A DNA stretch of 64,000 nt, from NCBI RefSeq assembly GCF_000023445.1, contig NC_012881.1:3153501-3217500 (forward strand), written 5' to 3'. How positions within the stretch are numbered: position 1 is the stretch's first letter; every line of letters begins with the position of its first letter. The notes under the pieces are model-generated. The model saw nothing but the letters and a program-made list of their open reading frames with translations, was not told the origin of the DNA and did not search any database. This document shows positions 59,546-62,034 of this stretch, in pieces. This stretch comes from Maridesulfovibrio salexigens DSM 2638 (GTDB lineage Bacteria > Desulfobacterota > Desulfovibrionia > Desulfovibrionales > Desulfovibrionaceae). The position numbers and the translations under genes were made by a program.

Positions 59546-59620
59546 AGGCGCGTAGCTCAGGGGGAGAGCGCTTGCTTGACACGCAAGAGGTCAGCAGTTC
59601 AAAGCTGCTCGTGCCTACCA
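59546..59620 (+). tRNA. tRNA-Val (anticodon GAC)
   Basis: The 75-base gene folds as a cloverleaf: acceptor AGGCGCG with CGTGCCT (one G-T wobble), D-stem GCTC/GAGC, anticodon stem CTTGC/GCAAG with loop TTGACAC (anticodon GAC, reading the valine codon GTC), T-arm AGCAG/CTGCT with loop TTCAAAG, and an encoded CCA at 59618-59620. It is complete and has its own promoter and terminator. Its 3' half is duplicated at 61942-61989, marking it as an integration site. Confidence 0.97.
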
Positions 59621-59632
59621 GAAGATTCAAGG
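59573..59632. repeat. Left attachment-site repeat (60 bp)
   Basis: This copy runs from the anticodon stem of the intact tRNA-Val through its CCA and 12 bases beyond. It is identical, base for base, to 61942-62001. Confidence 0.93.
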
Positions 59633-59662
59633 GTTTAGGATTAATTCCTAGACCCTTTTTTT
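59631..59662 (+). terminator. Terminator behind the intact tRNA-Val
   Basis: GGGTTTAGGA pairs imperfectly with TCCTAGACCC, followed by seven or more T. Only its first two bases belong to the 60-bp repeat, so it lies on the island side of the left junction. Confidence 0.85.
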
Positions 59663-59969
59663 GTGGACGGTCAACCGAACGGTCAACCATTGTGGGTCTA
59701 CACCAATTAAAGGGGCGCAAGCCCGAATGATCAAATTTCTAGCCGTTGATGGGTCGACACCAAAATTACGGACGCTCGACTATTTTCAACGCATTATAAA
59801 CAAAAAAAGCTGGAGGCTGTCACTGCACCGACACAAACCCTAAAATGAATTAATTTCTCTCCCATATCCGCTAGGAGGTGGACCAAACAATGTGCAATAA
59901 CAGCATACGGTAGTCGTCCTAATTATGTGGATCATTTCTTTTTGCGCATCATCCATTCTTTAGAACTAA
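59663..59969. other. Left-end island DNA without a recognised gene
   Basis: About 300 bases between the tRNA terminator and the sigma-factor stop. It includes the GGTCAACC pair and a 60-codon frame (59661-59843) with no recognisable motif. It could be remnants of a lost integrase or regulatory DNA; neither can be shown. Confidence 0.4.
59669..59688. repeat. Left-end GGTCAACC pair
   Basis: Two direct copies of GGTCAACC, 12 bases apart (59669 and 59681), sit 36 bases inside the left repeat. A similar pair lies at the right end. Candidate recombinase arm sites. Confidence 0.5.
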
Positions 59970-60575
59970 TCAAACTAAATCTTTAGTTGCCTGCTTTCGA
60001 TCACAAGCGAATTCATTTCTTTCATTAATATAAAAATCGCAACCAACTTCAAGACTCTTTTTCAATTTGGCTTTTGCCCTATGAAGTCTGATTTTAGCTG
60101 TTTCAACTGATATCTTGAGAATTTCAGCTATCTCCTTATGTGTAAATCCTTCGATTTTATTAAGGATAACGACCGTTCTATAGTCAGGCGGCAGCCTGTC
60201 AATAAACTCCCTGATGCAATCATTCATTTCATCACGAATTAAAACTCTGTCAGGCGAGCCTATATTGTCGTTGGCCTTGGAAACAATTTCTTCGATTTCA
60301 GGCAAATGAATCTGGAGAGGCGCAAGCGGACCAGCATAAGAATGTTTGAATGATGATGATTTCAATTTGTCCAGAGCAGTTTTTGTAGCAATCATATAAA
60401 TCCAGGTGGATAACTTCGAGTTTCCTTTGAACGTATCCAGACCCTTATTAATCTTCTCAAATACTATCTGGGTAATTTCTTCTGCTTCGTGCTCGCCGAC
60501 AAATCCCTTTAGGTAATGATGAATCTTTGAATAATATTCATCATAAATTTCATTGAAAACGAGTTGTTTGACCAT
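59970..60575 (-). CDS. ECF-type sigma factor with cysteine tail
   Basis: The 201-residue protein has sigma region 2 (about 8-75, VFEKINKGLDTFKGNSKLST and WIYMIATKTALDKLKS) and region 4 (about 118-175, FTHKEIAEILKISVETAKIR), with no region 3 or 1.1, so it is group 4 (ECF). A tail of about 25 residues carries Cys179 and Cys191 (GCDFYINERNEFACDRK), possibly a metal or redox sensor. No anti-sigma gene is adjacent. It is divergent from the two cargo genes, whose upstream region has two ECF-like promoter repeats. Directing transcription of those genes is inference. Confidence 0.9.
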   Translation of the reverse strand: MVKQLVFNEIYDEYYSKIHHYLKGFVGEHEAEEITQIVFEKINKGLDTFKGNSKLSTWIYMIATKTALDKLKSSSFKHSYAGPLAPLQIHLPEIEEIVSKANDNIGSPDRVLIRDEMNDCIREFIDRLPPDYRTVVILNKIEGFTHKEIAEILKISVETAKIRLHRAKAKLKKSLEVGCDFYINERNEFACDRKQATKDLV

Positions 60576-60834
60576 AATTCACATCTTGTTAATGAGTACT
60601 TAAATTTGCCGCTATCAATAGCAACAGTATTTAGCCGATCATTCAATGCAGTTTTGAATACATCTAACCAAGACTCCAGTCCATAACATTTCATATAGAT
60701 TTTAAAGTACTACTGACTAATAAGCACTATCCGTCCGTAAAACACATTCAGTAACTCCTGCAATCGAGATCCGACAAAGCCAGACGAAATGGTAATTTTG
60801 TTTAGCGTAAGGTAATAATTTTCAATTTATCCTG
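60576..60834. other. Divergent intergenic region of the island
   Basis: AT-rich DNA between the sigma-factor start and the tandem repeats. I see no gene and no third copy of the repeat in either direction, so the sigma factor itself may use a different promoter. Confidence 0.4.
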
Positions 60835-60870
60835 CATCAGGGTGTATCCTTTTTAATTTTGAATCGTCTA
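60835..60870 (+). promoter_or_regulatory. Candidate ECF promoter, upstream copy
   Basis: This 36-bp element contains ATCC (60846-60849), a 15-base spacer and CGTCTA (60865-60870). It matches the element at 60898 in 28 of 36 positions. CGTC-type -10 sequences are typical of ECF sigma factors. Confidence 0.6.
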
Positions 60871-60897
60871 AAAATAGAGAAAGCCAAGCAGCACCTA

Positions 60898-60933
60898 CAT
60901 CAAGGTACATCCCTTTCAGTTCTTAATCGTCTA
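60898..60933 (+). promoter_or_regulatory. Candidate ECF promoter, downstream copy
   Basis: This second copy has ATCC (60909-60912), the same 15-base spacer and CGTCTA (60928-60933). A start about 7 bases further would leave a leader of some 20 bases before the gene at 60962, with AAGGAGGG at 60951 as ribosome site. Confidence 0.65.
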
Positions 60934-60961
60934 TTTTTTTGAATCATTAAAAGGAGGGCAA

Positions 60962-61198
60962 ATGATCGGACATGAATTTAGTGGGAACTACTGGTGGCTA
61001 TTCCCGTTGGTAATGTTATTATTTTGTCTTTTGTTTATGCGAGGCTGCTCTCTCAGCCGAGAAAAACCTAGCGGAAAGATGTGTAGATCTTGGGGACATA
61101 AAAGGACTGAGGAATCTACGTTGAAAATTCTTAACAAACGATATGCCAACGGAGATATTAGCCAAAAGGAATATGGGGGAAAAAAAGAGAATTACTAA
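60962..61198 (+). CDS. Small SHOCT-like membrane protein
   Basis: The 78-residue protein has one membrane segment (about 11-27, WLFPLVMLLFCLLFMRGCS), a basic linker, and a C-terminal SHOCT-like motif (STLKILNKRYANGDISQKEY, residues 52-71), a short helical module common in small membrane-linked proteins. It is preceded by an excellent ribosome site (AAGGAGGG) and the tandem promoter-like repeats. It is followed after 85 bases by the DGC gene, likely in one transcript. Role unknown; a membrane signal or anti-sigma-like partner of the ECF factor is possible but unproven. Confidence 0.75.
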   Translation: MIGHEFSGNYWWLFPLVMLLFCLLFMRGCSLSREKPSGKMCRSWGHKRTEESTLKILNKRYANGDISQKEYGGKKENY

Positions 61199-61283
61199 AA
61201 TTAATTATATGGGTAGCCCCCCGGAGAGAATGGGGAGAACTGTAATCACAATTTCAAAAAATATTATAAGGAAATAATAAACA

Positions 61284-61820
61284 ATGACTGATACATTTAC
61301 ACTGGAAGTTACAAAAACTGACAAAGTTTGTGCCGCAGGAGAGAAATTCGGACGCAAGAGTCAGGAAGAAAATTTAACCCCTGTTTTTTCATGTGAAGGA
61401 GGCTGTATCAAGGGAGAAATTGCCCGACAGACTGCGAACCTTATTGCCAAGGCAGACGGATATGCCCGAGCTTGTCATGGAGAGTTGTTTTCCGTCCCTC
61501 ACTCTGATCTGGCCAAATGGATCAGGCAAGCAGAAAAGGTAGTAGTTATTGATGGCTGCTCCTTGTTTTGCCATAGTAGAATGGCAGATAAAATCATAGA
61601 CAAGGACAAACTGGTCGTAATTGATTCCCTTTCCATTCACCAAAAATACGCAAACCTGATGGATGTTGACGATGTGCCTGAGGAGGAAAGAAGGCAGACA
61701 GCTGAGGAGGTTGCAAATATTATCCTTTCCAACTTGAAAGAGGGCATTTCCTTCGAAAAAAGCGACCAAGCTTGTTCCGAATGCTGCAATCCTCAAGTCA
61801 GTAACGACTGTTGTTCCTAA
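61284..61820 (+). CDS. DGC-family putative zinc-binding, cysteine-rich protein
   Basis: The 178-residue soluble protein resembles the DGC family (putative zinc-binding), with the named motif in VVVIDGCSLFCHSRM (Asp90, Gly91, Cys92, Cys96), an N-terminal FSCEGGCIKGEIARQTANL (Cys37, Cys41) and Cys64. The last 17 residues add five cysteines (CSECCNPQVSNDCCS), an unusual tail that could bind metal or a thiol-reactive ligand. It is the last gene of the island, ending about 10 bases before the GGTCAACC pair. With an ECF sigma factor it suggests a metal or thiol stress response, an inference. Confidence 0.8.
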   Translation: MTDTFTLEVTKTDKVCAAGEKFGRKSQEENLTPVFSCEGGCIKGEIARQTANLIAKADGYARACHGELFSVPHSDLAKWIRQAEKVVVIDGCSLFCHSRMADKIIDKDKLVVIDSLSIHQKYANLMDVDDVPEEERRQTAEEVANIILSNLKEGISFEKSDQACSECCNPQVSNDCCS

Positions 61821-61830
61821 GCAAAAACAG

Positions 61831-61875
61831 GGTCAACCGACGGTCAACCGATGCCTATAACATCCCTATAACATC
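61831..61875. repeat. Right-end GGTCAACC and CCTATAACATC pairs
   Basis: GGTCAACCG occurs at 61831-61839 and 61842-61850, then CCTATAACATC is tandem at 61854-61864 and 61865-61875. The 11-base periods suit protein-binding arm sites. No protein is assigned. Confidence 0.55.
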
Positions 61876-61941
61876 ACTGAAAAATGTTGGACCTCAAGAA
61901 AAATTGACCAATAAATTCAAACTATTAAGACCGTTATGTCG

Positions 61942-62001
61942 TGCTTGACACGCAAGAGGTCAGCAGTTCAAAGCTGCTCGTGCCTACCAGAAGATTCAAG
62001 G
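61942..62001. repeat. Right attachment-site repeat with tRNA-Val 3' fragment
   Basis: This exact copy of 59573-59632 holds the tRNA anticodon-to-CCA part (61942-61989) without a 5' half, so it cannot make a tRNA. It marks the right boundary of the island. Confidence 0.93.
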
Positions 62002-62034
62002 ACTTAAGAAGAAATTCTTAAGTCCTTTTTTCGT
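61998..62034 (+). terminator. Terminator beyond the right attachment repeat
   Basis: AAGGACTTAAGAA (61998-62010) pairs with TTCTTAAGTCCTT (62015-62027), followed by T residues. It sits in the same position relative to the tRNA 3' end as the terminator at 59631 but differs in sequence. Confidence 0.88.

Follow-up and report, generated by a model that had tools for sequence, protein, structure and literature searches.

In the genome of Maridesulfovibrio salexigens DSM 2638 (contig NC_012881.1) we analysed a 64-kb stretch (positions 3,153,501 to 3,217,500; hereafter the window) that contains, close to one end, a compact element bounded by a tRNA-Val gene. This gene, tRNA-Val(gac), was the only tRNA gene found in the window by ARAGORN, and its 3′ part belongs to a 60-bp sequence that is repeated exactly and in the same orientation further on, with identity between the two copies ending at both sides. 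The distal copy begins at nucleotide 28 of the tRNA and is a 5′-truncated tRNA-Val fragment; the core site is the 3′ part of the tRNA gene. The pair is the sole exact repeat of at least 40 nt in the window (21 overlapping 40-mers, all from the pair), and Rfam gave no match other than the tRNA. Between the repeats lie 2.3 kb with three genes, for an element of 2.4 kb in total, and the GC content of the interior is lower than that of the window (0.392 vs 0.462). A first-pass annotation of the same DNA had described this arrangement of perfect repeats, intact tRNA-Val and truncated copy, and the comparison confirmed it to the base.

The cargo comprises genes for an extracytoplasmic function (ECF) sigma factor, a small SHOCT-like protein and a DGC-family protein, as annotated at first pass and in agreement with open reading frames and Pfam, save that the SHOCT match is below its cut-off (Table 1). 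The sigma factor has Sigma70 regions 2 and 4 only, the ECF architecture. The 78-aa protein has one hydrophobic stretch and matches SHOCT at 21 bits (cut-off 27), and its relative in locus L044 scores 32.2 bits; the 178-aa protein matches DGC at 63.6 bits (cut-off 27). A structural homologue for the DGC protein was sought in the PDB, and the best sequence match (E 9e-5, 49 residues of a ryanodine-receptor chimera) was not accepted.

Table 1. Features of the tRNA-Val element and its borders, in window coordinates.
Feature	Position	Strand	Remarks
Intact tRNA-Val(gac), presumed integration target restored by the element	59546..59620	+	ARAGORN, Rfam
Proximal 60-bp core repeat copy (attL side)	59573..59632	+	
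Terminator-like stem and T-run behind intact tRNA, GGGTTTAGG type	59629..59663	+	also behind the G004 tRNA-Val
Left arm pair GGTCAACC-GAAC-GGTCAACC, putative integrase arm-type sites	59669..59688	+	boxes at 59669 and 59681
ECF sigma factor, 201 aa	59970..60575	-	Sigma70_r2 and r4 above Pfam cut-off; TIGR02937 above cut-off
Putative ECF promoter 1, GTGTATCC-N15-CGTCTA	60842..60870	+	
Putative ECF promoter 2, GTACATCC-N15-CGTCTA	60905..60933	+	
Small SHOCT-like, probably membrane, protein, 78 aa	60962..61198	+	
DGC-family cysteine-rich protein, 178 aa	61284..61820	+	
Right arm pair GGTCAACC-GAC-GGTCAACC	61831..61849	+	boxes at 61831 and 61842
Repeated TATAACATC, 11 bp apart	61856..61875	+	kept in related right ends
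Distal core repeat copy with 5′-truncated tRNA-Val (attR side)	61942..62001	+	
Terminator-like stem behind distal copy, AAGGACTTAAGAA...TTCTTAAGTCC	61998..62030	+	G008 tRNA-Val has the same type

The two ends of the element match, each carrying a paired GGTCAACC box just inside the repeat. Genomes are denoted here by G numbers and loci by L numbers; the genus set comprises 17 genomes, including that of the window (G000), and the family set 288. Within the genus set the pair pattern occurred at 14 places in seven genomes, with none for a reversed-pattern control, and 11 of these were at tRNA-Val ends, two at tRNA-Ala fragments (G002, G016) and one (G001) at neither. Family-wide there were 54 places in 34 genomes (reversed controls summed to 15), and 28 of the 46 whose context was examined lay at a tRNA gene or fragment with fixed offsets: 22 were right-end contexts, mostly 111-117 bp ahead of the tRNA fragment (19 distinct ends, three of them with three boxes), and the other six, 47-64 bp beyond the end of the tRNA, belonged to left ends. 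Twenty right ends aligned with a mean identity of 0.608 (0.524 between tRNA-Val and tRNA-Ala elements), compared with 0.366 when stretches 150 bp further inside were put through the same procedure. Their shared part, approximately GGTCAACC-n4-GGTCAACC-AA-nGCCTnTAACAC-nCCTnnAACATCACTGA, resembles a set of integrase arm sites with accessory repeats of excisionase-like type behind them, and the TATAACATC repeats of the window element may be sites for an excisionase or accessory sites. The stretch inside the distal copy is matched at 75-93% in G004, G016, G005, G003, G015 and G001, each time beside other genes. Behind the two tRNA sequences stand different terminators: the GGGTTTAGG type is probably carried by the element, and that behind the distal copy is probably chromosomal, the same type occurring in G008, which is without a second tRNA-Val copy.

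Other arm types occur at the same tRNA-Val core, with GGGGAACC or GATATACAC/GATCTACAT boxes (L059, L061, L065, L068), which suggests several integrase specificities with one common target; in the G006 and G013 islands, of the GATATACAC/GATCTACAT type, an integrase lies 0.1 and 2.2 kb from the tRNA. A phage link was also considered and rejected. The right end had no match in 50,697 phage records, and the related integrase matched 308 phage records, all at less than 60% identity (about 25-26% for the ten listed).

The tRNA query matched in all 40 genomes searched with it (G000 included), in some weakly and perhaps via other tRNAs, and at least one extra truncated tRNA-Val copy was present in 10 of the 17 genus genomes, G000 among them. 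We compared 18 elements, picked for carrying these ends or a second tRNA copy and therefore not a random sample: 14 adjoining a tRNA, two cassettes of second rank from G277, and one large element each from G277 and G305. Those adjoining tRNA-Val came one each from G000, G001, G003, G005, G015 and G016, and those at tRNA-Ala from G281 (twice), G294, G295, G306, G311, G313 and G314; G004 (56 kb to the first copy, with an integrase at 3862742), G006, G007 and G013 were excluded. None of the 16 small elements (1,258-6,099 bp from tRNA start to copy) had a convincing integrase frame, and both large ones (12,262 and 17,674 bp) encoded a tyrosine integrase. The exact right pair was present in 12 of the 16 small elements, with altered or single boxes in G001, G005, G016 and the first G277 cassette. 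Cargo was mostly unrelated, only 6 of 120 pairs of small elements having translated similarity at E ≤ 1e-8, and included RHS-type proteins in G016 and G003 (with related sequence in G001), an SMR transporter and a HATPase-domain protein in G015, a DUF3800 protein in G281, toxin-antitoxin-like pairs in G277 and, between the further tRNA copies of G005, a methyltransferase and a DUF4910 protein. G277 has a tandem array in which two cassettes, one of 2.0 kb and one of 2.3 kb that carries two toxin-antitoxin-like pairs, follow an 18-kb integrase element; an extra arm pair without a tRNA fragment inside the last cassette suggests a further, merged unit.

Several observations on cargo stand apart from this comparison. 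In the integrase-less tRNA-Val elements of G016 and G003, RHS/YD-repeat proteins are accompanied by a small neighbouring protein, and G001 has sequence related to these (L050:2943-4898, L051:2945-4153, L049). The 12-kb G305 integrase element has an odd cargo, a 1307-aa frame that we take from its N-terminus to be flagellin-like (L214:13452-17375), and just inside a truncated tRNA-Val copy of G004 (L066, G004:C1:3837501-3848000) are large proteins that, by their opening residues, are presumably DndD/DndE-like and involved in DNA modification. Defence cargo was also considered and rejected. Of ten proteins submitted to PADLOC, two from the 18-kb G277 element matched TmtA and TIR/ThsB strongly; the window sigma factor (19.3 bits) and a single protein of a small element (LmuB, 17.3 bits) matched only weakly, and the window DGC protein and five further small-element proteins had no match.

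Unoccupied sites exist among relatives, as the first-pass annotation had anticipated, in that G012 and G014 have a single tRNA-Val copy whose neighbouring gene is the one that follows the last tRNA copy in G005 and G006. For G000 itself the case is more indirect: G008 has one copy, backed by the terminator type found behind the distal copy of G000. None of the 16 other genus genomes combined an empty site with the exact flanks of G000, and the gene to the right of the element had a strong match in only three of them, at a distance of 14.6 kb from the tRNA in G011, well past the islands in G004 and elsewhere in G016. Presence of the region in all relatives, which the annotation had named as evidence against mobility, was not observed: the three-gene cargo was absent from all 16, which yielded distant matches to DGC (33-35%) and the sigma factor (20-32%) and none to the SHOCT-like protein.

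Beyond the genus, the three genes recur together in a Desulfobulbaceae metagenome-assembled genome (MAG; L044), with identities of 62% (ECF), 55% (SHOCT) and 71% (DGC), and in a Nitrospirota MAG (L045; ECF 44%, DGC 59%, SHOCT over 21 residues only). They also occur together in L104 and L105, from g36, another genus of the family; L043 has SHOCT and DGC, L108 has ECF and DGC, and so do the Firmicutes loci L046, L047 and L048, with a CMD-type gene between the two in L046 and, by sequence, in L048. The orientation of the ECF gene differs among these module loci, and the DGC loci L106, L107 and L109-L111 of g36 have no close ECF gene. Recurrence of the three genes at other tRNA sites, a further expectation of the first-pass annotation, was not borne out: at 12 other DGC loci (six with a close ECF gene) the fetched stretch contained no tRNA-Val or tRNA-Ala, one locus having a tRNA-SeC 4.4 kb off, and the module is therefore not confined to cassettes of this type. 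In the DGC gene of L044 (L044:5992-6534), codon 23, which encodes K, L or E in relatives, is an in-frame TGA, reflecting either a sequencing error or a broken gene.

Upstream of the SHOCT-like gene are two promoter-like tandem repeats, 63 bp apart and 78% alike over 40 nt. Their two-block motif, resembling TGTA(T)CC-N15/16-CGTC, is found ahead of the operon twice in the window and in six further loci, preceding the SHOCT or DGC gene in L043, L044, L045 (CTGTATCC), L104 and L105 (both GTGTACC), and L108 (GTGTATCT); L104 has a second copy before its CMD-type gene. The L045 site falls outside the loose regular expression used for the scan. Over 1.42 Mb, some of it overlapping, that expression gave 42 rows, which after deduplication included eight sites at module loci, and no motif was found at the five DGC loci that have no ECF gene nearby. 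The ECF sigma factor would read the two GTGTATCC/GTACATCC-N15-CGTCTA promoters and thereby transcribe the SHOCT-like and DGC genes. We infer promoter recognition by the sigma factor, as well as the function of the DGC protein, from sequence, and the annotated notion of a cargo that brings its own sigma factor and cognate promoters gains support from the likely motif before the same genes in other lineages.

The window sigma factor has exactly three cysteines, C120, C179 and C191, and all three are invariant in the nine module ECFs (eight aligned first, with L108 as the ninth). Of six other ECFs in the genus, five are full-length and have none of the three, and one is a fragment only. A second ECF in L105 (L105:7090-7662), which directly adjoins an arsenite methyltransferase gene, has eight cysteines, including one in each of the three module columns, so the module may not be alone in having this trait. 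CorE-type ECFs, which have cysteines in the linker and at the C-terminus, are known to sense metals (PMC8999054); like those described there (ECF238, formerly ECF44), the window protein combines a cysteine between the regions or before region 4 with C-terminal cysteines. In contrast to the CXC linker and C-terminal cysteine-rich domain of that group, it has no CXC linker motif and, among its three cysteines, a single one before region 4 and a C-X11-C tail, and its gene partners are different. It is probably a CorE-like sensor of thiol-reactive metals or metalloids acting through the three conserved cysteines. Arsenite is our leading guess for the ligand: an ArsM gene (343.6 bits, cut-off 263) starts about 0.3 kb after the SHOCT gene of L105, and the L046 module has ArsC- and ACR3-like genes, each scoring under its equivalog cut-off, no more than about 6 kb away.

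Gene and domain searches, tblastn and hidden Markov models (HMMs) detected neither an integrase nor a convincing remnant of one in the window element, and the annotated lack of a recombinase in the island held throughout its interior. The best tblastn hit of 37 related integrases was at chance level (E 0.018), and integrase HMMs found nothing at E ≤ 0.5; weak integrase frames were seen in the elements of G005 (0.011), G281 (0.062) and G294 (0.28). The related integrase family was detected in 129 of the 288 family genomes (E ≤ 1e-25, seven first-look candidates scored per genome), integrase-bearing elements with the same right ends are present in G277 and G305, and G000 itself has 11 PF00589 matches, with none of the seven listed positions in the window. 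The window region would be an integrated element that is non-autonomous and belongs to a tyrosine-integrase family with a core site starting in the anticodon arm of the tRNA. It would keep both halves of the attachment site, with paired GGTCAACC arms on both sides, the TATAACATC repeats, the 3′ half of the tRNA and a terminator; with both halves present and no integrase, it most likely moved either through an integrase acting in trans or alongside a neighbouring element, and cargo would be swapped between such ends. The helper integrase may have been that of a passing element, a more distant integrase, or one since lost.

We consider it likely, taking these lines together, that the window holds a non-autonomous element moved in trans, with an ECF-controlled cargo that senses a thiol-reactive metal or metalloid. 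Several observations pull the other way. Eighteen of the 46 examined pair contexts had no tRNA match, and the bare GGTCAACC pair is common in viral contigs (at least 120 stretches), where 80 loci had no tRNA within 200 bp and no match to the HMM of the related integrase, the one integrase family covered by that scan, which was checked on known integrases; thus only the geometry is specific. Left ends are variable: the exact left pair occurs in 3 of the 16 small elements (G000, G015, G313), GGTCAACA pairs take its place in G001, G003 and G016, an altered pair or single box in the first G281 element, G295, G306, G311, G314 and the G277 cassettes, and other boxes in G005, the second G281 element and G294, so part of the set may be hybrids that combine two attachment types. 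At the threshold above, G000, G003, G005, G015 and G016 yielded no member of the related integrase family, and the small elements there could therefore be fixed relics. On the regulatory side, no motif precedes the ECF gene of the window or was found at the Firmicutes loci L046-L048, 12 loose motif matches fall outside module loci (one, in L102, of the GTGTACC form), and arsenic genes are near two module loci only.

Some of these points would fit a once-complete island whose integrase was deleted and which is now fixed, its small size being coincidental. Such a history agrees with the variable left ends, with the missing related-family integrase of G000 and with the description, in PMC5704250, of cis-mobilizable elements (CIMEs) as decayed integrative and conjugative elements (ICEs) or integrative and mobilizable elements (IMEs). 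We nevertheless regard it as rather unlikely, as no integrase remnant was found inside, both arm sides are intact, the distal copy is still 60/60 identical though outside any working tRNA, and the same compact integrase-less build recurs in 16 elements with little shared cargo. That the tRNA-Val locus was duplicated in tandem long ago, and unrelated genes came to lie in between, would account for the two like-oriented tRNA 3′ halves and deserves almost no credence: the distal copy begins only at nucleotide 28, right arms stand at fixed distances, the layout returns at tRNA-Ala with other sequences, single-copy genomes with conserved flanks exist, and the unlike terminators behind the two copies are each matched in another genome. 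As for regulation, the sigma factor might have no role in the adjacent operon, the tandem repeats being incidental or bound by another protein. The ECF gene of the window and the Firmicutes loci, where no motif was found, and the stray motif matches lean towards this, whereas the occurrence of the motif upstream of the SHOCT or DGC gene at seven loci including the window, and again before the CMD-type gene of L104, makes it quite improbable.

The first-pass annotation knew of no described system of this kind. That holds in part: integrase-less islands flanked by attachment sites are known, and the element family and the sigma module appear to be variants not described before. As set out in PMC5704250, CIMEs have lost integration and transfer genes and kept attL and attR, and (citing Pavlovic 2004) they accrete in tandem at one site. 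The window element resembles them in being flanked by the 60-bp repeats and putative paired arm sites at both ends, in having three convincing open reading frames, none transfer-like, and in having no recombinase of its own, unlike IMEs, ICEs and tycheposons; tandem accretion is also a shared trait. It differs from the CIMEs described there in belonging to small elements with conserved right ends, two tRNA targets, several genera and swapped cargo, in which no decayed integrase was seen. In Dehalococcoides, 31 ssrA islands were detected, 15 of them without an integration module, and these too are tandem islands at one RNA gene bounded by its repeats (PMC3146451); unlike them, the present elements use tRNA-Val and tRNA-Ala, GGTCAACC arms and other cargo, and are small with conserved paired right ends. 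Tycheposons are likewise tRNA-bounded cargo elements, described in PMC10872708 as 4-200 kb with a tyrosine recombinase, compared with 2.4 kb and no recombinase for the window element. The window element is thus a CIME-like, non-autonomous member of a recurring family. The openly licensed PMC literature searched yielded no paper that describes this family or a module of ECF, SHOCT and DGC genes, and both look like new variants of a known theme.

More tentatively, and with some doubt on our part, Desulfovibrio-like bacteria may run a dispersed, integron-like economy in which cassettes of 1-3 kb are moved in trans into and out of tRNA-Val and tRNA-Ala sites and stacked there, the window element being a complete one-component metalloid response. 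If so, a single cassette would bring a sigma factor with a three-thiol metalloid sensor together with its own promoters and target genes. If trans-movement is right, the two ends plus cargo would define a minimal mobile unit whose dependence on an integrase in trans is testable, and would help to account for the arrival of small adaptive genes at conserved tRNA sites where no vehicle is seen. The sigma module would offer a type of sigma factor, open to experimental test, that carries its own thiol sensor, perhaps for arsenic, and for which the likely promoter and targets are already mapped.

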